64,000 nucleotides of DNA from the NCBI RefSeq assembly GCF_020091585.1, contig NZ_CP083582.1:2294001-2358000 (forward strand), given 5' to 3'. Below, in pieces: positions 1 through 14,667 of this stretch. A program made the translations under genes and the position numbers. The notes beneath the pieces are model-generated. The model did no database searches, was not told the origin of the DNA, and saw only the letters and a program-made list of their open reading frames with translations. Each line of letters opens with the position of its first letter. Position 1 is the stretch's first letter. This stretch comes from Kovacikia minuta CCNUW1 (lineage in GTDB: Bacteria; Cyanobacteriota; Cyanobacteriia; Leptolyngbyales; Leptolyngbyaceae).

Positions 1-1
1 A

Positions 2-193
2 GAGTCCTTGGAGCTATTTCTACGGTTACGCAATGCTGTAGCTCATGGAGGTGATTTAGCCTCAGAGGAGAAGATTGATCAGAAAGTCTATGACAGATTT
101 AAGAAGTTGGTGACAGATTTGATGTACGAAATTCGCTTAAAGATGTTGTATGGTCTTGAATATAAGACATTCTTAAAGCCTAGAGGATTGTAA
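2..193 (+). CDS. HEPN-domain protein, C-terminal fragment (cut by window start)
   Basis: The frame is open from base 2, so the gene begins upstream of the window. What remains is about 63 residues ending in TAA. Near its start is the motif LRNAVAHGG, which fits the R-x4-H signature of HEPN domains, the RNase-like helical modules found in toxin-antitoxin and abortive-infection proteins. The rest is short, charged and helical. The R-x4-H match is seen in the sequence; ribonuclease activity is only known for some families and is inferred here. It lies at the left of the mobile-element region, a usual place for defence genes. The N-terminal partner domain is missing, so the subfamily cannot be assigned. 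Confidence 0.55.
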   Translation, partial: ESLELFLRLRNAVAHGGDLASEEKIDQKVYDRFKKLVTDLMYEIRLKMLYGLEYKTFLKPRGL

Positions 194-430: not shown

Positions 431-646
431 TTATCCTCTCAGTTCAGGTGGAATTTCTAACGCTTGCTCACAGCGTTTTAGATGCCAACGATAGGTAGCT
501 CTCGCCGCTTGGGGACGGGCAATGTTTCGCCAGTGCTGCCCCTGCTTCAGCAGTCCCTCATCTCGCAATTTCCAAAGGTGCTTGTCGCTGATTCCCAACC
601 GCTGGCAGACTACAGCGGTCGCAACCCAATCGCTTTTAGCCATCAC
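431..646 (-). CDS. small helix-turn-helix protein, excisionase-like
   Basis: A 71-residue basic protein. Residues 8-32 (TAVVCQRLGISDKHLWKLRD) read as a helix-turn-helix of the MerR/excisionase type, followed by a short basic tail. Its ATG overlaps the stop of the Rep-like ATPase gene by four bases, so the two are cotranscribed and probably translationally coupled. In integrative elements such small HTH proteins act as excisionases or copy-number regulators. That role is inferred from position and fold only, and no integrase is present in the window to pair it with. Confidence 0.55.
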   Translation of the reverse strand: MMAKSDWVATAVVCQRLGISDKHLWKLRDEGLLKQGQHWRNIARPQAARATYRWHLKRCEQALEIPPELRG

Positions 647-2436
647 TCCACCCTCCGGATATCGGAATTGGCGGCCAACCGCTTACTCTTCCGTACTCGA
701 ACCCAGTGGCAAGGTTCCTCTCGCCCAGTGAGCAGGGAGGGGTAGGGACCAAGGGCAGTTTTTATGTAGCTCCCTCTTTCCCACCCTCGATCGCTGAAGA
801 CTGTAATCACTTCATCTTTCTCGAAGGAGGTGTGAACCTCTACCTTCTCCGTCTTGCGATCGCTTGAGCGATCGTCATTCTCAATAACGCCCTCACGATC
901 ACTTAAGTGATCGCGACAAGTGATCGCACTCTCCGTCTTTCCCTCACTAGGTTTGAGTGCCAAGTGATCGAAGTGATCGCCCAAATTGCCGTTTGCATTA
1001 GTGAAATTTCCGGAGTTTTGACGATCACTTCGATCACTTGGCATCAAAGCACTGCCCTGTATAGCATTGAGTGCGATCACTTCCTGCCGATCACTTCGAT
1101 CACTTGGATCACATGAAGAAGTGTTAACAGATTCTAATTCCCTATTGCTACCAGCGAAGTAAAACCATGCTCTTTCACCTTTCGGTCTCACTCGTCGGAT
1201 CAGTCCTTTTGCCCATAGCTCATAACAAGCTTTTCTGGCTGAGTGTTTGGCAATGCCCAAATATTCTGAGATTTCCTGTGTTGACCAACGCCGCTCACGC
1301 TGGTCATCCTCATAGAGCCACAGCCTGATCCTGTCTTCATGGGTAGCGGCGATTTCTGAGGCTTGCCCATCGTCGCCCATGTCCTCACCCAGGTAGGTGA
1401 AGCTGAAATCATCATCATCAAACTGGAATTTGTAGCGCCCTGGCGGTCGCCCTAACCGTGTCTTCTGTACCCTCATCAAACGGTCTGAGGGAGACTGCCC
1501 TAAGCTCATCCCCCAAACTTCTGACACTGAGTTGTAAATTGCCCTGGTTCCTCGGCTCCCTCCCTCGGCATTGCTGTGGTGGATGATGATCACCACACAC
1601 CCGTATTTGTTGGCGATCGCTGCCAGCTCCAGCAGGGGACGGGCATATTCGGTATCGTTCTCTGAAAAGATGCTGTTCCGGTTGATGGTTGTAAGCGAAT
1701 CGACAATCACCAGACTGGGGCGATCGCCCTCGATATGCTTCTCTAACCTGCTCAGTCCTTCGACCTGCCAATCGCTGAGAATCTTCAGCGGTGCATCGTC
1801 TCGAATGCCCCGAATATCAATCCGCTCGTTCGTCACGATCGTTGGTTCATCAGTTTGCACCAATAAAACTTTGCCGTGTTTCACTGGGTAACCATTCCAG
1901 GGCTTCCCATAGAGAACGCATTCCATTAATTGATAGGCAAACAGGGTCTTACCTACTCCGCCGTCGGCATGCAGCAGGAGGGTCGTGGATTCGGGTATCC
2001 ATCCGGGAACCAGCCAGTTTACCTCCTGGTCATGTAGTGCTTTGAACTCTGCCACGGTCAGCGGTTGCACCGGCTGCTGATTGATGAGGGCTTTGTTATA
2101 GGCGTCGGTGAGGTAACACAGAGGACGTTTGTATTTCCGGGCGAGGGATTGCAGTTTCCAGGTTCTCAGTCCAGGGTCTACAATCTGGTCAATCTTGCGA
2201 TAGCGCTCAATCATGGTGCCAAACTCCTCTGCTTCCAGGTCGTAGTCGAGTTTCGATTCAACGAGCTGCTTTCCCCAATCGTTGAGCGTTTCGACGGGGA
2301 TACCTGACCAGCGGGCGAGTTGGGGAAGTTCTAATTCAGCGGTGCCTGAAATGGTCGCTGTGTAGATTTCGTCTAAAAGGCGGTTGACAGCGTTATGGTG
2401 GAGATCTGTAGATTGTACTGAGTGCTTTGATTGCAT
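643..2436 (-). CDS. RepA/RSF1010-like AAA ATPase, probable replication initiator/helicase
   Basis: A 597-residue protein. Residues about 157-164 (ADGGVGKT) form a Walker A motif, residues 241-247 (SLVIVDS) a Walker B, and IIIHHSN follows as the sensor strand, the order seen in RepA/DnaB-type hexameric ATPases (AAA_25). After the ATPase core, about residues 365-425 look like a winged helix (STQEISEYLGIAKHSARKA). The C-terminal 170 residues are low-complexity and rich in SDR/DHF dipeptides because they are encoded by an iteron-like repeat array. It is the first gene of a two-gene operon with the small HTH protein. The family supports replication of plasmids, phages and integrated elements; which of these applies here is inferred. 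No primase domain is recognisable. Confidence 0.7.
   Translation of the reverse strand: MQSKHSVQSTDLHHNAVNRLLDEIYTATISGTAELELPQLARWSGIPVETLNDWGKQLVESKLDYDLEAEEFGTMIERYRKIDQIVDPGLRTWKLQSLARKYKRPLCYLTDAYNKALINQQPVQPLTVAEFKALHDQEVNWLVPGWIPESTTLLLHADGGVGKTLFAYQLMECVLYGKPWNGYPVKHGKVLLVQTDEPTIVTNERIDIRGIRDDAPLKILSDWQVEGLSRLEKHIEGDRPSLVIVDSLTTINRNSIFSENDTEYARPLLELAAIANKYGCVVIIIHHSNAEGGSRGTRAIYNSVSEVWGMSLGQSPSDRLMRVQKTRLGRPPGRYKFQFDDDDFSFTYLGEDMGDDGQASEIAATHEDRIRLWLYEDDQRERRWSTQEISEYLGIAKHSARKACYELWAKGLIRRVRPKGERAWFYFAGSNRELESVNTSSCDPSDRSDRQEVIALNAIQGSALMPSDRSDRQNSGNFTNANGNLGDHFDHLALKPSEGKTESAITCRDHLSDREGVIENDDRSSDRKTEKVEVHTSFEKDEVITVFSDRGWERGSYIKTALGPYPSLLTGREEPCHWVRVRKSKRLAANSDIRRVE
897..1105. repeat. 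iteron-like array of GATCACTT/AAGTGATC, candidate origin
   Basis: Ten copies of GATCACTT or its complement start at 897, 905, 918, 962, 971, 1023, 1032, 1075, 1089 and 1098, several as immediate inverted pairs (897-912 is a perfect 16-bp palindrome) or as 9-bp-spaced direct pairs. A degenerate copy follows at 1107. All lie inside the 3' part of the Rep-like ATPase gene. Clustered short repeats within or beside a rep gene are typical binding sites for initiator proteins; the origin function is inferred. Confidence 0.6.
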
Positions 2437-3065: not shown

Positions 3066-3230
3066 TTTGGTTCCTGGTACTGGATAAAGGTGAGGCACCT
3101 GTTTTCAAGTGCCTTTTTGTGTTTGGTTTTCATCCTCTGGTGAAGAAATTCAGGAGTGGGATGATTAGTGAACAACACGGGGAAGGGAGCCAACCATTAC
3201 CCCGTGCTGTTGTGTTCACTCCGTAGAGCA

Positions 3231-3290
3231 GTTCACGGTCTGTTTCATACTACCGTGAACCATTTTACGGGTAAATTGTTTTACGGTAGA
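3231..3290. promoter_or_regulatory. operator region of XRE regulator (inverted repeats)
   Basis: GTTCACGG at about 3,231 is repeated in inverse orientation as CCGTGAAC about 14 bases on, and two TTTTACGG copies follow immediately before the XRE gene. Upstream, 3,168-3,220 contains a second imperfect palindrome (CACGGGG / CCCCGTG). This intergenic space serves two divergent genes, the layout of an autoregulated phage-type switch. Sites are seen; the repressor-operator link is inferred. Confidence 0.5.
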
Positions 3291-3524
3291 ATGGCTGATG
3301 AAAATCGTTATGGATCACCCTTGGTGCAACTTCGAGAACGGGTAGGTTTGACTCAAGAGGCTCTAGCTCTAGTGCTAGGGGTCACTGATCACACTGTTCG
3401 TAATTGGGAGAAAGGTAGAGCAGAGCCAAAACTGACCATTAGACAGACAAAAGCTCTGTGCCAAGCTCTCCAATGCACTTTGGAAGATTTGCCTGACACA
3501 TTTGCGCCTGGAGGAGGTGACTGA
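3291..3524 (+). CDS. XRE-family transcriptional regulator
   Basis: A 77-residue Cro/CI-type protein. The helix-turn-helix is clear: LRERVGLTQEALALVLGV followed by TDHTVRNWEKGRAEP and LCQALQCTLEDL, the usual five-helix HTH_3 layout covering nearly the whole protein. The open frame extends upstream to 3,168 but that part is intergenic palindrome, so the ATG at 3,291 (MADENRYG) is preferred. It is divergent from the minus-strand early genes and is followed by a HIP1-based terminator. It probably represses its own promoter and that of the early genes. Confidence 0.8.
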   Translation: MADENRYGSPLVQLRERVGLTQEALALVLGVTDHTVRNWEKGRAEPKLTIRQTKALCQALQCTLEDLPDTFAPGGGD

Positions 3525-5074: not shown

Positions 5075-5278
5075 ATGGTTGTCAGTGAGTCGGAAAGCAG
5101 AATGAAGCGGTTGGCAGCATATTTACCTGATTCGGTATATGAGGAGTTGGAGCAATGGGCTGGGGAGGATAAGAGATCTCTGTCCAACTTGGTTGCATTC
5201 CTTTTGGAGCAAGCGATCGTTGAGCGTCGAAAGGAGCTTAAACAGCAAGAACCCGACTCCAAAAACGACTCAAAGTAA
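5075..5278 (+). CDS. ribbon-helix-helix (CopG-like) DNA-binding protein
   Basis: 67 residues. A short beta strand (MKRLAAYLPDSV, residues 10-21) is followed by two helices (YEELEQWAGEDKRS, then LSNLVAFLLEQAIVERRKEL), the CopG/Arc arrangement. A strong TTGGAGG site lies eight bases before the ATG. It starts a plus-strand group with a lipoprotein and another small gene (gaps of 14 bases, then a 4-base overlap). Probably a plasmid-type copy-control or antitoxin-like regulator; no toxin partner is recognised. Confidence 0.65.
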   Translation: MVVSESESRMKRLAAYLPDSVYEELEQWAGEDKRSLSNLVAFLLEQAIVERRKELKQQEPDSKNDSK

Positions 5279-6090: not shown

Positions 6091-6684
6091 ATGTATCAAG
6101 ACACTTCATCTTGCGTCTCTCCTGCCCTGTGGCTTCCTGGTGTACTGTTTCTAACTTTTTGCCTGGGAATTTGGATTGGTGACTATCACCGCAAAAGCAT
6201 TGCAAAACAACAACCTCACAATCAATTTACCCAGACTCAAAGCACTACTCTTTCTCAGCACCCATTAGACGAGATAGATCGCTTCCTATGGTTCATAGAC
6301 AGTTTGTGTTTTATGTTGGCAATTTTAGAACTTGAGAAGTATTCCAAAAAAACTGCTATCGAATGGAATGAATACATTATCCGTAAAGCATTTTTAACCT
6401 ATTCTGACGTTCTAGAAGAATCTATAAGAAAGCACATTGATGCAAAGCAAATATGGATGGAGAAAAACTATCAAAGCTATCAGCAATCAATTCAATCTTC
6501 AAAAGCAAAGGGACATTCAGCGTTTCAAAACTTCCCCCTCCTTCCTAAACTTTTAAACTTGCTCAATGGTGATGAGATGACAGCCAGGAGACTGCTAACC
6601 CTTGCAAAAAAACAGTATCCAAGCAAGTCAAATCAATGGATTTTTGAGAAGGTAATCCATGACTTAGAACGTGATCGCCATTAG
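6091..6684 (+). CDS. membrane-anchored protein with C-terminal YPxKS-W-DLERDR motif
   Basis: 197 residues. One N-terminal membrane helix (ALWLPGVLFLTFCLGIWIGD, about residues 12-31) is followed by a polar linker and a helical domain. The C-terminal 40 residues (RRLLTLAKKQYPSKSNQW then KVIHDLERDRH) match the three-fold repeat of the gene at 14,194. The promoter must lie between the terminator and the ATG, only 25 bases, so read-through or a promoter inside the previous gene is likely. Family not recognised; it is probably specific to this element type. Confidence 0.55.
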   Translation: MYQDTSSCVSPALWLPGVLFLTFCLGIWIGDYHRKSIAKQQPHNQFTQTQSTTLSQHPLDEIDRFLWFIDSLCFMLAILELEKYSKKTAIEWNEYIIRKAFLTYSDVLEESIRKHIDAKQIWMEKNYQSYQQSIQSSKAKGHSAFQNFPLLPKLLNLLNGDEMTARRLLTLAKKQYPSKSNQWIFEKVIHDLERDRH

Positions 6685-6739: not shown

Positions 6740-7072
6740 CTACCCCTCGCGACGATGCAGAATTCCGCTGATAGATTCCCCCATTTTGCCGATCGTCGCA
6801 ACCATCATGCCCTTAATTTCCCTCACATCTTCGCGAGTCTCGGAAAGCTCCTCATCAAACATCTTGAGGGCTTCTTTCATTTGCTCCTGATTCCGCCTCA
6901 GATGCTCGAAATCTCGCTCCGCAGCATAGGCTTTTTGCTGGGAACTAGCATAGCGATCGAGCGTCTCTTGATGGCGCTTTTCATAGAACGTGCGAAGTGC
7001 AAGCCATGTGCCAATCGCACCCAGGCTAAGGGAAAACATCTTCTCCGCATAATCAATAATGCTGCTATTCAT
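6740..7072 (-). CDS. membrane-anchored coiled-coil protein, holin-like topology
   Basis: 110 residues: one N-terminal membrane helix (MFSLSLGAIGTWLALRTFY, about 11-29) followed by a long charged coiled coil to about residue 90. It overlaps the upstream gene by eight bases and is the last gene of the minus-strand operon. One-helix proteins with a coiled coil at the end of a late operon are often lysis accessories or membrane anchors; that reading is inferred. No lysozyme or amidase is seen in the window to support a lysis cassette. Confidence 0.55.
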   Translation of the reverse strand: MNSSIIDYAEKMFSLSLGAIGTWLALRTFYEKRHQETLDRYASSQQKAYAAERDFEHLRRNQEQMKEALKMFDEELSETREDVREIKGMMVATIGKMGESISGILHRREG

Positions 7073-7244
7073 TTGCCTCTTCCCTCAATGATTTAGCGAT
7101 TTCCTCAAGGGCGATCGCCATTGCCAACAATTCAATTCGTTCTGGTTTCCCCTTCCCGCGCCAGGTGTGGAGGAAGTGGGAGAGCACATCCACAAAAACA
7201 GCAACCGTTGCACTGTCGATCGCTACATCATCAGAGTCAGACAT
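7065..7244 (-). CDS. small hypothetical element protein
   Basis: 59 residues from ATG at 7,244 (MSDSDDVAID); an upstream start at 7,265 would overlap the LamG gene. It is helical (FVDVLSHFLHTWRG, then ERIELLAMAIALEEIAKSL) and has no membrane segment. It lies between the LamG-like gene and the coiled-coil gene, overlapping the latter. No family recognised. Confidence 0.45.
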   Translation of the reverse strand: MSDSDDVAIDSATVAVFVDVLSHFLHTWRGKGKPERIELLAMAIALEEIAKSLREEANE

Positions 7245-7261
7245 GGCAAGGTTCACAAGGT

Positions 7262-7990
7262 TCACAGGACGTAAAAACCTTTAAGATAACTAACTATTTT
7301 GCCGATTTCCGCACTGGCAAGCGGTTGATCGAAAATTGCCAACTCAGCTAAATCCCCCATCCAAAAATCACTCAAAAGAGATCCGTTGCTGGCAGCTCCC
7401 AGATAGGCATCACCCGTGATCGGTAATCGGCTCGAAAGCGCTAAAGAGCCTCCCTTATAGCTATTGAAAAAGAAATCGAGGGAACTGGCTTGAACTCGCC
7501 CCGTCCACACATTCCACTTGAAAGGCTCCTGAAGATACCGAATGTAAGCATCGTTCCCACTCGCATCATTGCGCTGAAAAATTGCGTTGCCGCCTGGTGA
7601 TGTTGTCCCGAACCAATAGGCATCGCGAGTCGCTCCACGGGCACTTAGCAAAGCACGATAAGCCCCTACGCCCTCCGGGCGCACCAGGGCGATCACGGTG
7701 GCTATTTCCCCCAGGTAGGAGTGACTGAGAAACTGATTGCCTGTAAATCGAAGTACAGGAACCCCGTTCAAAGCATCGGAAATCTTTGCCGGTCCACCCG
7801 TTCCTGATGCGTGAAAACCTTGCCCTGATATGTCCGTAAGTTGAGTAACAATTCCGCTCCCGTTGGTTTGGCACTCATCCGCCCGCCAGTAAACCTTTAA
7901 TCCCGTGGTTGACATGATTGGGTTAGCTAGTGGTGACACCTCCCCCCCCGTGCCATTCCCCCCTTGAATTTGCGCTCTGAATAACGGCAT
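7262..7990 (-). CDS. LamG/concanavalin A-like lectin domain protein, candidate tail adhesin
   Basis: 242 residues from ATG at 7,990, whose first base is shared with the upstream stop (TGATG), so the two are coupled. From about residue 27 the pattern is that of a concanavalin-like jelly roll: LKVYWRADE, DISGQGFHAS, VLRFTGNQFLS, VIALVRPEG, and the closing GDLAELAIFDQPLASAEI. Such domains bind glycans and are common in phage receptor-binding and bacterial surface proteins. Coming near the end of a late-type operon, a receptor-binding role is likely but inferred. Confidence 0.65.
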   Translation of the reverse strand: MPLFRAQIQGGNGTGGEVSPLANPIMSTTGLKVYWRADECQTNGSGIVTQLTDISGQGFHASGTGGPAKISDALNGVPVLRFTGNQFLSHSYLGEIATVIALVRPEGVGAYRALLSARGATRDAYWFGTTSPGGNAIFQRNDASGNDAYIRYLQEPFKWNVWTGRVQASSLDFFFNSYKGGSLALSSRLPITGDAYLGAASNGSLLSDFWMGDLAELAIFDQPLASAEIGKIVSYLKGFYVL

Positions 7991-8628
7991 CAGACAAACT
8001 CCGTTACGAAAGCAGCCCCATTTACAGCACTCCACTTCCCCTCTATCAGTCCAGAGTAGCCGTAGGGCATTTCATAATAGTCACCTGGTCCCAAATGCAA
8101 AGCAGCAGCATTTGCGCCTAAAGAGGGTTCCTGGGAGGTTGGTCCTGTTAGTCCAGTTAGCTTCAGGTAAAGCTTTTCCGTTGAGTTGTTATAGATTGCA
8201 GCACCCTTGCGATCTGGATTGGATGCAAGCAGTTGAACAACTTGGGTTGAAGCAGGGAAAACCCCCGTCATCCCTTGTGTAGCGCTGCCAAAACCATAAC
8301 TTGTATTAGGAAAAGGCATACTGAACACCTTTAATTTCCAATTCCTGACTTGTAACCCCGCATTGGCAATTCTGAAGCCCAAGCGCCTACTTGAAAACAT
8401 GGGAGGGATGACCAGGTTAAAGAGTGCAACCTCTCTCCCACTGCGTAACAAACGCCCCTCACTTTTCCACAAAGATCCATCAGTTTGAGCCACTTCAACC
8501 ACCACATCACGAGGCGGGTTGACTTGTTCAACCTTAAACCACTCATCCTCAGTTACAGGGGTTTGTCTCCATTCAGAAAACAGTTCAACCTCTCCCAACA
8601 ATGACCATTCAAGAGCAGGTTCAGGCAT
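7990..8628 (-). CDS. beta-rich structural-type hypothetical protein
   Basis: 212 residues, Gly/Ser/Thr-rich and beta-like, with no signal peptide or membrane helix. The C-terminal half (YNNSTEKLYLKLTGLTG, then LGPGDYYEMPYGYSGLIEG) has the look of small phage head- or tail-decoration domains that carry a metal- or sugar-binding jelly roll. It is coupled to the LamG gene downstream by a one-base overlap and separated from the next gene upstream by four bases. The structural role is inferred. Confidence 0.5.
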   Translation of the reverse strand: MPEPALEWSLLGEVELFSEWRQTPVTEDEWFKVEQVNPPRDVVVEVAQTDGSLWKSEGRLLRSGREVALFNLVIPPMFSSRRLGFRIANAGLQVRNWKLKVFSMPFPNTSYGFGSATQGMTGVFPASTQVVQLLASNPDRKGAAIYNNSTEKLYLKLTGLTGPTSQEPSLGANAAALHLGPGDYYEMPYGYSGLIEGKWSAVNGAAFVTEFV

Positions 8629-8632
8629 AGGA

Positions 8633-9085
8633 CTAAAGGGAATTTACAGCATTTTCAATCTGGTCTACTCGCTGGAATAGGTCAATATCTGCCCCATCGT
8701 ACTTCCAGATCTCGATCTGGACATCCTCAAACCACCAGGGAAACTTAACCTGTAACATCCACTGTGATTGGATTTTGGGAAACACACATAAATTTAGATG
8801 GTTCAGTCTTACCCGTCGCTGTGCTGCATGCACTGAGGCAGTGAATATGGTTGTTGCGCTGGGAGTGAACAATAACAATTGAGCAGCCCACGCACCCAAA
8901 TACCATCGCGGTTCAGACGATCCACTTTTCACACCAATCATGAGGACGTAGCTATCCTCAATCAGCCAATACTTGAGGGAAATGGGGTTATAGCTCTTTT
9001 CGCTCACTCGCTCAACCTGGTAACTCTCACGGGCTACCAGGTTCCAATTGAGTGTGTCCGAGAATTCTGGGAAAAGGCGTTCCAT
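8633..9085 (-). CDS. hypothetical element protein (structural operon)
   Basis: 150 residues, Trp- and Tyr-rich and beta-like, with YLGAWAAQLLLFTPSATTIF in the centre and KFPWWFEDVQIEIWKYDG towards the end. The hydrophobic stretch is too mixed with charged flanks to be a convincing membrane helix. Spacing to both neighbours is four bases or less, so it is cotranscribed with the LamG-like and other genes. No family recognised. Confidence 0.5.
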   Translation of the reverse strand: MERLFPEFSDTLNWNLVARESYQVERVSEKSYNPISLKYWLIEDSYVLMIGVKSGSSEPRWYLGAWAAQLLLFTPSATTIFTASVHAAQRRVRLNHLNLCVFPKIQSQWMLQVKFPWWFEDVQIEIWKYDGADIDLFQRVDQIENAVNSL

Positions 9086-9088
9086 ATT

Positions 9089-9361
9089 TCACAAATAAAT
9101 TAAACCGTTCTCCCAGTCCTCAGAGCAGGCGACCACGTCAACCCCGTAATCATGCAACCCATCCATGAAATCGTCAGGGCTGATCAATCCGCTGACGAAA
9201 TCATGAGACAGTCGCGACCTGGCGATCATCTTCCTTAGTTCCTCCTGCCAGTCAGCTTCATCCATTCCAGGCAGCCAAATAGCAGGAGTAGCGAAGTAGA
9301 TATCAAGGTTAGGTTGTGGCTGACACGGGTGCCCGTTCAAATTCGAGGTAAGCGCGTCCAT
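9089..9361 (-). CDS. small acidic hypothetical protein
   Basis: About 91 residues, acidic, with the segments IWLPGMDEADWQEELRKMI and DDFMDGLHDYGVDV. The ATG at 9,361 has AGG eight bases upstream and overlaps the end of the preceding gene by about 50 bases; a later TTG start is also possible. An acidic protein of this size at this place in a late operon could be an assembly chaperone. That is a guess, as I find no motif to support it. Confidence 0.45.
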   Translation of the reverse strand: MDALTSNLNGHPCQPQPNLDIYFATPAIWLPGMDEADWQEELRKMIARSRLSHDFVSGLISPDDFMDGLHDYGVDVVACSEDWENGLIYL

Positions 9362-9881
9362 TTGCAGCACCTAATAACGCCCTTTTGCTACCACCAGCAC
9401 CGAAAAGCCCATCAAAAGCATCCTGTAAATCGTCGGGAGTCACAGTCCCAGACGCTTTTGAAAACGGGACACTGTAATGAGATTGATCGCCAGCCGTGCT
9501 GTAATATCTCACCCACTTGGTATTCCATGCCGTTCTCTGAACCGTTGGCGTTGGGTCGCCTGCAAACCAATGAACGCGAGTAGGCTTAACCCCACTCCCT
9601 CTGATTCTTAGAGGGACTTCATCAGAGGCAAGTGTGGTCTTTAATCCAGCTTCTGTTGCGGTCACTTTGGAAAGGGTATCGTTATCGACCGCAATTCGAT
9701 AAACGGCTGGATTCGTTCCAAATTTTTGCAAAAGAGAGCGATAGAAGACATCTGTAGCAGCCCCTCTCGATTGAATTGCGGTCCCTGTTGCTGGTGGCTG
9801 TCTATTGGCGTAGTACTGCGCTCTTGCAGTGGCAGCGGTTGCCTTTCGTTCGTAATACCAAGCAGGTTTCATTCTGCCCAT
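9309..9881 (-). CDS. hypothetical structural-type protein
   Basis: 190 residues from ATG at 9,881, which has GGAG nine bases upstream; the longer frame uses TTG. The N-terminus is basic with Tyr and Ala repeats (PAWYYERKATAATARAQYYA). The central part is beta-like (VPLRIRGSGVKPTRVHWF). It ends with LGAANGRAYLEFERAP. No signal or membrane segment. It overlaps the next gene. No family recognised. Confidence 0.5.
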   Translation of the reverse strand: MGRMKPAWYYERKATAATARAQYYANRQPPATGTAIQSRGAATDVFYRSLLQKFGTNPAVYRIAVDNDTLSKVTATEAGLKTTLASDEVPLRIRGSGVKPTRVHWFAGDPTPTVQRTAWNTKWVRYYSTAGDQSHYSVPFSKASGTVTPDDLQDAFDGLFGAGGSKRALLGAANGRAYLEFERAPVSATT

Positions 9882-9989
9882 AAAATCAATCTCCAAATAA
9901 CTGCTAAATCATTTATAACCCCTATTTTTGTTCAGTTTTTGAGCGTGGAAATATTGATATTTCCAAATTTTTTTCGGATTCTCAAACAC

Positions 9990-10811
9990 TCAAACTTTAA
10001 CCAAAGCGTCCCTTCTTCTGTTGGATCGATCTACCAATGTAATCGCTTTTGGCATGCCCCATAAATGCAATTCTGCCCACCGAAATCTTACCCAAGCTAT
10101 CGGTCTCCTACGAGGTTCCCTACGCATTTCCCCGTAAATTCTCCGCGTTGGTGGAACCGTTGGAGGTGTATTATCTAGCTGCGAAACTGTTAGATAATCC
10201 CAGTTAGGTGAGTGGTTTTGTATGTCTAAAACTTTCCCGATGACTTCTTTTCCTTCAGATTCAGAATGGGCAGCAATGATTAAGTGATAGCCGCGCTCTG
10301 GTTGTCGATAGGATAATTTCAATCTGCCTTTCCGCCAGCGATACCCATTTCCCGTTGCAAACTCTGTTCTTATTTTGTTTGCGAAAACAGTAGCGTTTGC
10401 TTTAGTAAACGACTCACTGGTTTCGTTCATTACCCTAAATGTAATTTCAGCCGTAACAGGTTGATAATCATCTGAAACATCATTTAGATCCTCATGAAAG
10501 TAGAGCTTAATTTGGGGGTGGAATTTAACGGATTGCTGGTAAGACTCAGTTGGTATCCCATAGATCGGACTCTGCAAAGATTGTCCTTTTCCAGTTATCA
10601 GGTAGAACAATAGAACCCTTAGAAGGGTCATATCTATGGAATCGTTTTCAGCATGAGTACAACCCACTCTTAGGGAACTTCGAGGGGTTGCTATATCTGG
10701 TTCCCAATTGTCTCCCAGGTCGCTAAACCACTCCCTAACCTCCCGATTCATGGCACTTTTGAGGAGGTCTTGTAAGTGTTCGGCTGGGGAAAAGTTATCG
10801 GGTAACGACAT
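9990..10811 (-). CDS. hypothetical element protein, beta-rich
   Basis: 273 residues without membrane segments. Acidic start (MSLPDNFSPAEHLQDLLKSA), then a beta-rich middle with TAEITFRVMNETSESFTKA, and a basic C-terminus with many Arg (MRREPRRRPIAWVRFRWAEL). It follows the large PT-rich gene by two bases and precedes a roughly 100-base gap, the largest in the operon, at 9,882-9,989. The profile would suit a baseplate or adaptor component but I cannot place it in a family. Confidence 0.5.
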   Translation of the reverse strand: MSLPDNFSPAEHLQDLLKSAMNREVREWFSDLGDNWEPDIATPRSSLRVGCTHAENDSIDMTLLRVLLFYLITGKGQSLQSPIYGIPTESYQQSVKFHPQIKLYFHEDLNDVSDDYQPVTAEITFRVMNETSESFTKANATVFANKIRTEFATGNGYRWRKGRLKLSYRQPERGYHLIIAAHSESEGKEVIGKVLDIQNHSPNWDYLTVSQLDNTPPTVPPTRRIYGEMRREPRRRPIAWVRFRWAELHLWGMPKAITLVDRSNRRRDALVKV

Positions 10812-10813
10812 TT

Positions 10814-12079
10814 CTAGGGAGGGGATGAAGGGTTTAAGTCATTGGGTTGAATCGCTGGTGTTTTACTTGCTGTATTACTGGCACTTGCAGCGGTTGCAAC
10901 GGGTGTGTTGTCTTGTCGCAGTGTTGGTACTGCATCCTTTATCGCGTTGTTGAATGCTTGTTTTTGCTCGCTCAACTGTTCGATTTCTTCCCTGATGTTT
11001 AAGACTTCGCCAGTTACAGATGACAAACTGCTTGCAGTGTCTTCCAGACCTTCTAACCCATCTCTAAGCCTATCTAATTTCCGATGGATTACACCTTGTG
11101 ATGTCACTCTTTCAGGCATCCATTTATAGGCATTCTCACCAACAACGCGCCATTTCTTAAGTGCATTGCCAATCTTGCCCGTATCCTCTGCGATCCACTC
11201 GATAACCTCTCGCGTACTGTCTGCAATGTTGCGAATTGAATAAACAATGTTTGCAGCAGATTGATAAATCCTGTTTGCTTTTTTCCACTTATCAACCAAG
11301 TTGTTATAAACACCTTCACCCAAAATTGACTTAGCAATATCCCGAACCCCTTTCCCAATCAATTCGTTAACGTCTATCGGACTCCCTTCTGAATCTTTTA
11401 ATCCGATAATTGCTAAACCGTTTGACATTACATCTCCCAACGTTTCAACTAAATCACGACTGAGCATCGCTGCATTGTGCAAAACCGTAAATAAAGTGAG
11501 TGCGTTAAGGATGCGATCTATTTGCGTCCACTTCCTAAATTTGTCAAACGCATCTCTAAATTTGCCAAGAAAACCGCTAATCCCTCCTTCATTAATTTGC
11601 GCTCCCAGTTTCAGATCCATTACTTCCAGCTTTGCTTTGATCGCCGTCAGATCTGCTTGCTGAACTGTGGAGTTATTAAACACATAGGTGCCATTCCTTA
11701 GCCCCCTTTCCATGTTGTTAAGTCTTGCTTCCAGTGCCCGTAAGCAAGGGCTATTACATTGGCTATCAGTTGGAGGCTTGATGGGTGGTCCCGTTCCGAT
11801 TGGTCCCCTATCTGGCGATGGCGTCGCAGTACTACTGGGGGTTGGGGCATTTCTGGGGAGTGCAGCAGGGATAAAGGGAAGCCCCATTAATCCCGGTAGG
11901 TTGTTGGGGTTGAGCGGATCAGGGGTCGGGCTAGATGCCCCAATACTCCCTCCTGGGCTTCCACCTGGTGAAGGTCCAGGAGTGGGGGTGGGGGTAGGAG
12001 TAGGAGTAGGGGTGGGTGTGGGAGTAGGGGTGGGAGTAGGGGTGGGTGTAGGGGTGGGTGTAGGGGTGGGTGTGGGCAC
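10814..12079 (-). CDS. PT-repeat and helical part of a frameshifted giant element protein (3' part)
   Basis: From a GTG at 12,079 this frame gives 421 residues. About 33 residues are perfect Pro-Thr repeats, then a Gly/Pro/Ser linker, then from about residue 110 a long helical domain (ALEARLNNMERGLRNG; DAFDKFRKWTQIDRILNAL; LSSVTGEVLNIREEIEQL). The frame is also open upstream of the repeats to about 12,260 with Pro-rich sequence, so the GTG is unlikely to be the true start. With the preceding frame it forms one protein of roughly 860 residues. A tape-measure, pilot or surface-fibre role is conceivable; none is proven. Confidence 0.55.
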   Translation of the reverse strand: MPTPTPTPTPTPTPTPTPTPTPTPTPTPTPTPTPGPSPGGSPGGSIGASSPTPDPLNPNNLPGLMGLPFIPAALPRNAPTPSSTATPSPDRGPIGTGPPIKPPTDSQCNSPCLRALEARLNNMERGLRNGTYVFNNSTVQQADLTAIKAKLEVMDLKLGAQINEGGISGFLGKFRDAFDKFRKWTQIDRILNALTLFTVLHNAAMLSRDLVETLGDVMSNGLAIIGLKDSEGSPIDVNELIGKGVRDIAKSILGEGVYNNLVDKWKKANRIYQSAANIVYSIRNIADSTREVIEWIAEDTGKIGNALKKWRVVGENAYKWMPERVTSQGVIHRKLDRLRDGLEGLEDTASSLSSVTGEVLNIREEIEQLSEQKQAFNNAIKDAVPTLRQDNTPVATAASASNTASKTPAIQPNDLNPSSPP

Positions 12080-13425
12080 TCCGCCCGGTTCCCAGGTTGG
12101 AGTCGGTTTGTTTCCTGGTTTTGGCGCGGGTTGCCCTGCAAATGGATTAACCCCCGGATCTGAATGGGGCAGAGTTGGGGGAGGTTGGAGAAGGGGGAGG
12201 GGAAGGGGGGAGGGAGGGAAACTAGGGGGGAAGCGGGAAACGCTGGGCGAGGGTGCCTATCTGGCTCCTTCGACGGCATTGGGGGGGATGTAACAAGCGG
12301 GGTAATCTGGATTGAGCTTTTATCTACTGGACCTAGTGCCCCCGGCGCGCCACTAGAGTGATAGGTAATGATTCCCGTGTCGCTGTAAATGTCGTCTTGC
12401 AGTTGAGCAAGTGTGAAACTAATCACGACATCGTGAACGACACGAAAATTATTAGGAGAGTAGAAATATAGGTTAAACTCTCCCCCCAAAGGAAAGTTTT
12501 GCCTCTTAGTGTTTTTGGGAAGCATATTCCAGGGAATATTCCAGGGATAAAGCGGTCCGGTTTGCAGGGTTGGATCTTGCGGTCCCCGGTAGATACTTTG
12601 TCCTGGTGTGGGGTAGTGCTCCGGAGCTTTCCGGAGCAGCGGTCCTGCTAACAATCCCCCTAATTCCCCTCCAATAAATCCGCCGATCGCCGCTCCTATT
12701 GGTCCACCGATCGCCCCCCCGATCAGTGTCCCTGCGAGTGTCCCCCCTCCCACTAATGCCCCTAATGTTGCGGCATCGTTGGGACTCATCCCGTGAGCTA
12801 ATCCGCTCGCCCCTGCCAAGATGCCAGATAGGGCACCTGCCCCCGCTGGAGTCATCATGAATTTACCCAGTCCGGTCCCTGCGGGTGCTTCCGTTGGAAT
12901 CGTGGGTGCCTGGGGTGCTGTTTGAATTCCACCAGGTCCACCCCGATACCCTGGCAGAGGTGAGCCGCCTCCACCTCCACCTCCGCCTCCGCCTCCGCCC
13001 ATACTGGTTGGTCCTGGTGCCCCTCCTGGGTAATAGTCGGGGAATCGCTGGGCTAATTCTGATGGCAACATCCCAGAATAAGGGTTTTCGGGAACAGCCA
13101 TGCTTTTCGGAATATCCCCTAACACCTGGCTTCCAGTGCGAGCAGGATCAGGGTAGATATTGGGATAGCGCTGCGCTAATTCCTGGGGAGTCATTGTCGC
13201 CAGTGGATCGTTAGGGGTGTTGGGCATAGTGCCCAATCCCCCTCGATAGACTTGCTCTGGTGACAATCCCCCGTCAGGGTAGAGTTGGGGGTAGCGCTGT
13301 GCCAGTTCTGCCGCTGACATGTTTGTCAGTGGATCACTAGGCTTTACAGGGGCTTGTCCATAATCGGGATACACACTCCGGAAGACTTGCCCACCGAATT
13401 CGTAGGGAGAGGGGTTGGAAGGCAT
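11887..13425 (-). CDS. repeat/glycine-zipper N-terminal part of the frameshifted giant element protein
   Basis: 512 residues in this frame. Residues 1-140 contain three copies of a motif of type SAAELAQRYPQLYPDGG, each preceded by DPL or NPY plus a short spacer. A poly-Gly run follows (about 148-158), then a strongly glycine-zipper segment (about 190-265: GALVGGGTLAGTLIGGAI and onward), typical of membrane-inserting or tightly packed helices. Beta-like sequence follows to about residue 380 (FNLYFYSPNNFRVVHDVVIS). Beyond about 12,250 the frame reads as Pro/Leu-rich nonsense while the +1-shifted frame continues with PT repeats. So the coding frame changes in the C-rich tract at about 12,180-12,250. 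Confidence 0.6.
   Translation of the reverse strand: MPSNPSPYEFGGQVFRSVYPDYGQAPVKPSDPLTNMSAAELAQRYPQLYPDGGLSPEQVYRGGLGTMPNTPNDPLATMTPQELAQRYPNIYPDPARTGSQVLGDIPKSMAVPENPYSGMLPSELAQRFPDYYPGGAPGPTSMGGGGGGGGGGGGSPLPGYRGGPGGIQTAPQAPTIPTEAPAGTGLGKFMMTPAGAGALSGILAGASGLAHGMSPNDAATLGALVGGGTLAGTLIGGAIGGPIGAAIGGFIGGELGGLLAGPLLRKAPEHYPTPGQSIYRGPQDPTLQTGPLYPWNIPWNMLPKNTKRQNFPLGGEFNLYFYSPNNFRVVHDVVISFTLAQLQDDIYSDTGIITYHSSGAPGALGPVDKSSIQITPLVTSPPMPSKEPDRHPRPAFPASPLVSLPPPFPSPFSNLPQLCPIQIRGLIHLQGNPRQNQETNRLQPGNRAECPHPPLHPPLHPPLLPPLLPHPPLLLLLPPPPLLDLHQVEAQEGVLGHLARPLIRSTPTTYRD
11978..12078. repeat. hexamer-based VNTR encoding Pro-Thr repeats
   Basis: About 100 bases of GGGGTG/GGAGTA/GGTGTG units on the plus strand, read on the minus strand as alternating Pro and Thr codons. 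Hexamer periodicity keeps the frame when copies are gained or lost, so length variation would change the length of the stalk without breaking the gene. Confidence 0.8.
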
Positions 13426-13442
13426 AGGGCGTCAATAGTGCG

Positions 13443-13745
13443 TTAAGAGTAGAAGCCTGATGGTAGAGCGGTATTAGAGAATTCCTGGGCATAGGTCCAT
13501 AATTTGCTTCCACCAATCAGGTAGTCAGGCGACACTTGCAGGGAGAGGCGAACGAGCAATCGATATTTGTTGTCAGCCTGCACGTAGAAAATCCCTGCTT
13601 GAGCAACATTTTGATTGATTCCTACCCCTTCAATAGCTTGCAAGGTCGGATTAATATTAGCGAGAGCTAATCCACTCCAAGCTGCACACTCTTCCAGAGT
13701 TGTGATCGAATTTGGGATCTGGTTTGCGATATTCAGTACTGTCAT
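13443..13745 (-). CDS. first gene of the structural operon, hypothetical
   Basis: 100 residues, no membrane segment. It has a helical start (NQIPNSITTLEECAAWSG), a beta-like centre (GIFYVQADNKYRLLVRLSL) and an aromatic C-terminus. It precedes the giant PT-rich gene by 17 bases and is the most upstream gene of the minus-strand operon. I see no clear Shine-Dalgarno site, and the upstream 140 bases are A/T-rich, so the promoter is probably there. No family recognised. Confidence 0.5.
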   Translation of the reverse strand: MTVLNIANQIPNSITTLEECAAWSGLALANINPTLQAIEGVGINQNVAQAGIFYVQADNKYRLLVRLSLQVSPDYLIGGSKLWTYAQEFSNTALPSGFYS

Positions 13746-13892: not shown

Positions 13893-13937
13893 GGACTCTT
13901 AATCCGCTGGTTCTGGGTTCGAATCCCAGGTCACCCA
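13893..13937 (+). other. 3' half of tRNA-Lys(CTT): probable attachment-site scar
   Basis: Bases 13,893-13,937 carry the anticodon loop CTCTTAA (anticodon CTT, Lys), the 3' anticodon strand TCCGC, a perfect T-arm (CTGGG-TTCGAAT-CCCAG) and the 3' acceptor strand GTCACCC plus A73. No 5' acceptor (GGGTGAC), D-arm or full 5' anticodon strand precedes it: only GGA of the expected GCGGA is present. This is what integration into the 3' half of a tRNA gene leaves at the far end. Orientation places the element to the left and the intact tRNA beyond the window start. Confidence 0.75.
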
Positions 13938-14135
13938 TTTGATTGATGCCCGATCGATTGACACGCTATTTTGGGTGGTCATTGTCCTAAATGTTGGGGC
14001 AATTGACATTGTTGAAACCCTGAGGGACTAGCTGCGGTTTTTCCCTGACCCCTGTTCTCTGCTATATAGGGGTCGCAATCGCTGGCATTGCAGCATTCTA
14101 CGATCGCCCCTCCTAAAACCTGGGAAATCAAATAA

Positions 14136-14168: not shown

Positions 14169-14193
14169 TGTCGTGTCAGGTCTAGAATTCCCA

Positions 14194-14667
14194 ATGGATG
14201 CTTTAATCAACCGAATTGTGTTGCTGTGCAAGGGTGACAAAGAGAAAGCTAAAACCTACATTCGGGGGGCAATGGCATATTATCCTGGTCAAACTGCTCT
14301 GTGGTATTTACAAAAAGTCATTTCTGACCTTGAGCAGCAACAAGTCGAACAGTTCCGCCAACGAAAAATCGCGCCTTCCACTGTTTCCACTCCTGGTAAA
14401 GCCTTAAGACAACTGCTTGCCCAATCTCGCAGCGACAACCCGGGTAAAAGCGAAGCTTGGCATTTGAAAAACGCTCAACAACAGGCAAAATCTCAGCCAT
14501 CGAACCTGGTTGATCCAAAGCAAATGGGTCAACTCTTAGAACGACTGAGAGGGGATAGATCCGCCGCTAATCGACTGATTGAAAACATGAGAAGTCGATA
14601 TCCTGGTAAGTCTGACAAGTGGGTTTTAGACAAAGTGATGTATGACCTGGAGCGCGATCGCCGTTAA
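14194..14667 (+). CDS. three-repeat protein with YPGKS-W-DLERDR motif
   Basis: 157 residues from ATG at 14,194 (MDALINRIVLL); a GTG at 14,173 would add seven residues. Three copies of one helical unit are visible. They contain AYYPGQTALWYLQKVISDLE (residues about 30-49), NPGKSEAWHLKNAQQQ, and RYPGKSDKWVLDKVMYDLER at the end. The last is closest to the C-terminus of the protein at 6,091-6,684, which has an added membrane anchor. Pairs of helices around a conserved Pro-Gly-Lys-Ser and Trp suggest a small repeat-binding module, role unknown. Lies just right of the tRNA scar. Confidence 0.55.
   Translation: MDALINRIVLLCKGDKEKAKTYIRGAMAYYPGQTALWYLQKVISDLEQQQVEQFRQRKIAPSTVSTPGKALRQLLAQSRSDNPGKSEAWHLKNAQQQAKSQPSNLVDPKQMGQLLERLRGDRSAANRLIENMRSRYPGKSDKWVLDKVMYDLERDRR

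Follow-up and report, generated by a model that had tools for sequence, protein, structure and literature searches.

The 64,000-nucleotide stretch of the Kovacikia minuta CCNUW1 genome analyzed here (the window; G000:C1:2294001-2358000 of an 8.56-Mb, three-contig genome) carries a compact minus-strand operon of late type within a tRNA-delimited island. The island is quite possibly an integrative element resembling a temperate virus, with a late operon that encodes all or nearly all of an extracellular particle whose proteins have unrecognized folds. In a more specific form, which we hold more doubtfully, the operon would be the virion of an unrecognized lineage of temperate bacterial DNA viruses of 10-21 kb, integrating or plasmid-like, widespread in cyanobacteria and equipped with capsid and receptor-binding proteins that have no known relatives. 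A self-sufficient virus with unrecognized virion folds appears at least as likely as a satellite or a capsid-less particle. The operon genes are annotated as hypothetical proteins and had no counterpart in the phage, PHROG and viral-contig collections that were searched. A literature search for five locus tags, one protein accession and one plasmid name likewise found no mention.

The original prediction, made from the letters of the window, described about ten tightly spaced minus-strand genes at 6740-13745, and the open reading frame (ORF) coordinates bear this out. The ten genes overlap or are separated by gaps mostly below 20 bp. In order of transcription, with lengths in amino acids (aa), they are:

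13443-13745, minus strand: g1, first operon gene, 100 aa; 14 family members adjoining the giant.
10814-13425, minus strand: the giant, frame-broken; a repeat/glycine-zipper N-terminal part, a proline-threonine (PT) linker and a conserved helical C-terminal domain of ~200 aa.
9990-10811, minus strand: g3, 273 aa, the most conserved operon protein; 42 homologues.
9309-9896, minus strand: g4, ~190 aa, probably starting at the ATG at 9881; 32 homologues.
9089-9370, minus strand: g5, small (69-100 aa in relatives); 27 homologues between g4 and g6.
8633-9085, minus strand: g6, 150 aa, tryptophan-rich and conserved; 30 homologues.
7990-8628, minus strand: g7, 212 aa; family cluster in 16 loci.
7262-8035, minus strand: LamG-type lectin in a variable receptor-binding position (Pfam Laminin_G_3, 1.3e-8, above the gathering cut-off).
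7065-7265, minus strand: g9, 66 aa, an ORF only, with no family.
6740-7072, minus strand: g10, with a membrane segment and a coiled coil, at the operon 3' end; homologues in the same place in 9 loci.

Scans of the ten operon proteins placed only the LamG protein above the Pfam cut-off, with no other family, and returned no significant PHROG match; the lectin is thus the one protein that matches a known family, as had been proposed. The membrane-anchored coiled-coil protein that had been described is g10, supported by hydropathy. It sits in what may be a holin- or spanin-like position, with a weak PHROG holin match (0.009).

The operon was found well beyond its own genome. Of 144 genomes searched with g3, 19 matched (its own and 18 of the 143 relatives), and a profile search of 386 genomes of the cyanobacterial phylum found the operon in 27 (~7%) and the C-terminal domain of the giant in 23. 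Comparison of gene order across ~44 loci revealed a constant arrangement in diverse cyanobacteria (>40 loci): first gene, giant, g3, g4, g5, g6, variable lectin-type genes and a membrane coiled-coil gene. The first position is taken by the g1 family or by another small-protein family (110-165 aa), and a profile-level comparison of the first-gene families A8 and A4 detected no homology between them. For the closest pairs, the ratio of nonsynonymous to synonymous substitution rates (dN/dS) was 0.05-0.15 for g3, g4, g5, g6 and the replication ATPase of the element, and ~0.3 for the giant. Judged by these comparisons, the operon is no chance arrangement: its gene order is kept and selection on it is purifying.

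The g3 proteins of a distant branch (L077-L082) are longer, at 370-526 aa. The longest homologues (515-526 aa), in L077-L079 and on a plasmid of Tolypothrix PCC 7601, have an extra hydrophobic N-terminal domain that, to the eye, resembles the giant's own hydrophobic C-terminal domain and may link the giant with g3. Profile-level comparison of g3 with g4 detected no homology, and the small families A9 and A10 were weakly related.

The operon lies at one end of an integrated island. A 48-bp exact direct repeat, corresponding to the 3' end of a tRNA-Lys(CTT) gene, is present at L002:15700-15747 and in the window at 13893-13940. The left attachment site (attL), which retains the whole tRNA gene (ARAGORN, L002:15673-15744), is 3.3 kb left of the window, and g1 adjoins the right site (attR). 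Because exact tRNA repeats mark both ends, the element is complete at 17,194 bp, from genome position 2290699 to attR. From attL, the gene order is a frame-broken tyrosine integrase, a GmrSD_N and HEPN pair, a helix-turn-helix (HTH) gene, an AAA_25 ATPase, a Cro/CI-like regulator, several small genes and the operon. The elements in the window outside the operon are as follows:

1-193, plus strand: 3' end of a HEPN (MAE_28990-like) gene, whose GmrSD_N/DUF262 partner lies left of the window (Pfam 4.8e-18 and 1.4e-28).
431-646, minus strand: small HTH protein, a possible excisionase (HTH_17, 0.0015, below cut-off).
643-2436, minus strand: replication ATPase, AAA_25 (RepA/DnaB-like), 597 aa (Pfam AAA_25, 3.6e-29; PHROG primase/helicase, 4e-16).
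3168-3524, plus strand: Cro/CI-type HTH regulator (HTH_3, 4.8e-10; PHROG repressors), with homologues in 9 loci; a probable repressor.
5075-5278, plus strand: ribbon-helix-helix regulator (RHH_5, 6.4e-17).
13893-13940, plus strand: attR, the right end of the element, a 48-bp copy of the tRNA-Lys(CTT) 3' end.

Six further copies are delimited by tRNA repeats (Glu, 15.9 kb; Met, 16.3 kb; Glu, 13.9 kb; Phe, 12.6 kb; Ser, 18.0 kb; Lys, 10.0 kb), and the operon is also carried on four circular plasmids: pHT582-2 (15.6 kb), pHT582-1 (37 kb), Tolypothrix PCC 7601 unnamed14 (20.8 kb) and pMIC7113.08 (20.8 kb).

The putative receptor-binding domains vary among the loci and include LamG, discoidin (F5/8C) and, in L080, one S74 chaperone domain, a domain that occurs in phage tail spikes. 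Discoidin domains, fused or separate, are found in relatives of g7 (F5_F8_type_C in L019). The operon 3' end consists of these variable lectin or discoidin proteins followed by membrane coiled-coil or holin-like genes, and in three relatives a different enzyme is encoded near it: a YkuD/endolysin protein in G106 (L022; PHROG endolysin, 1.2e-30), a Tlde1-like protein in L082 (Tlde1_dom, 2e-4, below cut-off) and a C39 peptidase in L081 (Peptidase_C39_2, 2.5e-17). Swapping among unrelated enzymes is typical of phage lysis modules, which these mutually unrelated peptidoglycan-hydrolase-like genes appear to resemble. Hydropathy revealed no N-terminal hydrophobic segment or signal peptide in the conserved core proteins, so these are probably cytoplasmic until release.

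Before their conserved helical C-terminal domain, the giants have collagen-like runs (12-30 triplets), PT runs, coiled-coil repeats or glycine zippers, and hydrophobic or glycine-zipper segments are present. The collagen and coiled-coil stretches suggest that giants form oligomeric stalks. The tail-like profile first attributed to the operon was retained in part, in the stalk-like sequence (collagen, coiled coil, PT), the lectin and discoidin domains and the single S74 domain; no tail-tube, sheath, tape-measure or baseplate homologue was found with Pfam and PHROGs (for the delimited relatives, among 25 of the 49 PHROG families, those listed). The PHROG tape-measure match of the giant (0.013 only) lies on its glycine-zipper stretch, and PHROG tail-fibre matches stem from the repeat stretches of giants. 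Likewise, profile searches of the PDB with g1, g3, g4, g6, the cl3 family and the giant gave weak or low-complexity matches only, and the match of the giant to PBCV-1 P14 (1.9e-5) falls in its proline-rich part.

Among the operon proteins, structure models cover g3 and g4. The AlphaFold (AF2) model of g3, from a 22-sequence alignment, had a predicted local distance difference test (pLDDT) score of 86.8 and a predicted template modelling (pTM) score of 0.61, and the AlphaFold model of g4, an alpha/beta protein (30 sequences), had values of 88.1 and 0.73. Foldseek, the comparison proposed for identifying tail-like folds, gave no match to a phage-tail or other known fold for these two models. For g3, no significant match was found in the PDB or BFVD (the best was an unnamed BFVD entry, E 2.8e-3, TM score 0.36), and g4 had no significant BFVD match and no PDB fold match. 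VIA-align Z scores were at most 5.0 for g3 and 2.9 for g4. In these searches neither modelled protein resembled an HK97, jelly-roll or tail-tube protein, and a double jelly-roll or HK97 capsid identity for them was rejected for want of a fold match. The models of g3 and g4 are thus confident predictions without a known match, which does not in itself prove new folds.

The absence of recognizable capsid, portal, terminase and protease genes stood as originally claimed, within an element of 17,194 bp, longer than the ~13 kb of it that lie in the window. A normal head module just outside the window would have refuted the prediction. The 19.5 kb read to the left of the window hold the integrase end of the island, which stops 3.3 kb away at the integrase and tRNA site, and host genes, with no head or packaging gene. 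No terminase, portal or HK97-type capsid was found in the whole element (Pfam and PHROGs for the main proteins, the rest by reading), its own genome had no match to PF03237, PF04860 or PF05065, and a P-loop scan of the element found the Rep ATPase only. Among the 94 proteins of delimited elements, the 25 of 49 PHROG families listed included no head or packaging family and one 'virion structural protein' match of unspecified kind. A TerL_ATPase match on an L025 protein (0.0024, below cut-off) was discounted, as the protein is an integrase homologue.

Several of these results, and others, weigh against the favored reading. None of the elements examined yielded a capsid, packaging ATPase or terminase gene, and only two or three of >40 loci have a HerA/FtsK-like ATPase, which rules it out as a conserved packaging ATPase. 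The search of 50,697 phage records and five IMG/VR scans gave no operon homologue, the latter being short-pattern scans that can miss relatives. Lysis-type enzymes were recognized in few loci and in none of the genes of the window, and the G131 copy, next to a tRNA-Lys gene and flanked by host genes, has neither integrase nor rep beside it. Additionally, element size varies twofold (10-20.8 kb, with one plasmid of 37 kb), a spread that does not point to a single capsid of fixed size. Due to this size range and the missing packaging ATPase, our confidence remains guarded.

Among the rivals, a phage satellite survives best, although we consider it unlikely. Such an element would encode a receptor-binding or tail-tip apparatus, replicate and integrate by its own genes, and take its capsid and packaging motor from an infecting helper phage. 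A size of 10-18 kb, tRNA integration, an own Rep, defence cargo at the integrase side and the lack of capsid and terminase are all in keeping with this, as is an integrated island that has a (frame-broken) integrase and a replication gene without a complete virion gene set. The nearest tested biology is that of the phage-inducible chromosomal island-like elements (PLEs) of Vibrio, integrated islands of similar size with virion parts and no complete virion, where chimeric tails made from satellite and phage proteins give a precedent (PMC12987554). Unrelated putative satellites encode predicted tape-measure genes (PMC12987554). However, the PLE tail proteins are homologues of those of the helper (PMC12987554), whereas the cyanobacterial operon has no known helper homologue, its core families having no relative in the phage records, PHROGs or the pattern-limited IMG/VR scans. 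A satellite would also rarely need lysis genes of its own, and 25 of the 27 element-bearing genomes lack a PF03237 terminase, so that a helper would need to be lytic or to use another terminase. Phage-inducible chromosomal minimalist islands (PICMIs) and phage-inducible chromosomal islands (PICIs) resemble the element in integrase, regulator, replication gene and small size; PICMIs differ in their reduced gene set without a large structural operon (PMC10803314). Were the element a satellite, its arrangement would be the reverse of that in capsid-forming PICIs, as it would bring the receptor-binding end and borrow the shell.

Less likely again, in our judgment, is a DNA-free, tailocin- or bacteriocin-like particle encoded on a mobile island, which would form in the cytoplasm, leave by lysis, bind competitors with its lectins and act through the hydrophobic domain of the giant. 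The packaging genes that were not found, the variable lectin and discoidin domains, the hydrophobic and glycine-zipper segments of the giant and the G131 operon amid host genes would all agree with it. Nevertheless, nearly all well-delimited copies have integrase and replication genes, which a bacteriocin would not need, and the lack of any sheath, tube, baseplate or tape-measure homologue in the Pfam and PHROG searches counts against a tailocin as well. A host surface or secreted adhesive fibre spread on an island, an option raised in the original prediction, would explain the stalk-like giant and varied lectin-type domains and is highly improbable because the core proteins have no N-terminal hydrophobic signal, no secretion genes were recognized in the operon and peptidoglycan-hydrolase or holin-like genes end it in relatives.

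Our leaning towards the virus comes from a module that is self-contained, is conserved across the class and lacks the known-phage homologues that a helper-mimicking satellite should have, and from the terminase count given above. The genes for integration, replication, regulation and diverse receptor binding, together with those of lysis type, fit a temperate virus-like life cycle. Upon induction, the repressor would be relieved and the element would excise and replicate with its AAA_25 helicase. The operon proteins would then assemble in the cytoplasm, with g3 and g4 as core subunits and the giant as an oligomeric stalk whose conserved C-terminal domain is docked on g3, its N-terminal part and the lectins pointing outward. 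Particles would exit by lysis and deliver element DNA to cells bearing the right glycan; this DNA-carrying step is the least supported part of the proposed mechanism.

In layout (integrase, repressor, rep, late operon, receptor binding, lysis) the element is like temperate phages of the Caudoviricetes, from which it differs in having no HK97 capsid, portal, terminase or tail-tube homologue. The nearest concept, compared by description, is Charybdis, a mobile element in which a conserved structural module and predicted receptor-binding protrusions occur without any viral hallmark gene (PMC12324425). Charybdis belongs to Marine group II archaea and is a uniform 4.6-kb circle with no replication gene found and a double-Greek-key candidate shell protein, Gp3 (PMC12324425), whereas the cyanobacterial element ranges over 10-21 kb, integrates at tRNA genes and has an AAA_25 Rep and lysis-type genes. 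The authors of the Charybdis study (Kirchberger and Luque 2025) were undecided between a new virus, a satellite and a vesicle-borne element (PMC12324425). If the particle proposed here does carry DNA, virus-detection tools based on hallmark genes have missed a whole lineage. Both the virus and the satellite readings are directly testable since named strains carry the element, namely Tolypothrix PCC 7601, Allocoleopsis PCC 7113, Phormidesmis ULC007 and HT-58-2.

The giant had been described correctly in its glycine-zipper, PT-rich and helical C-terminal parts, though not as to an intact frame. In the window it occupies two overlapping frames, 13425-11887 and 12079-10814, changing frame within a C-rich, proline-coding stretch at ~12150-12290, whereas most relatives encode it in one uninterrupted frame (666-1224 aa). 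The giant is also split in G106 and G059, and two overlapping frames in or near the proline-rich part are seen at L022:5783-9855 (G106) and L023:5982-9852. At 12079-11980 of the window, a (PT)n run of 33 residues, all P or T, is encoded by near-perfect CCCACC-type repeats, a hypermutable stretch. A programmed frameshift was rejected by frame arithmetic, since the shift is -1 in the window and G106 and +1 in G059, which leaves no common mechanism. The split giants may reflect decay, assembly error or slippage.

The pair of genes at the integrase end, GmrSD_N (DUF262) and HEPN (L002:17306-19194 and window 1-193), is likely anti-phage cargo; the DUF262 protein matches PADLOC NsnA (4.4e-60). Defence cargo recurs next to the module in G065, where a PDC-S49 candidate defence protein (1.6e-177) is encoded at L015:16128-17768, within a few kb of the operon. 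Plasmid pHT582-2 also encodes, at L047:9827-14821, a 1,664-aa protein that has a perforin-like MACPF domain (2.1e-6).

A short (~190 aa), divergent tyrosine recombinase gene lies near the operon start in 13 loci (e.g., L020:6122-6673 and L095:5664-6242) and is possibly a dedicated integrase or a switch recombinase; inversion of the operon promoter in the manner of FimB was considered and set aside, as no consistent inverted repeats were found. IS110-type transposases lie beside elements at L020:1353-2537 and 7 other loci. Finally, the genes at 6091-6684, inside the element, and 14173-14667, outside it, have a C-terminal YPxKSxxW...DLERDRR domain in common, and small membrane proteins with this domain recur beside the operon in relatives.

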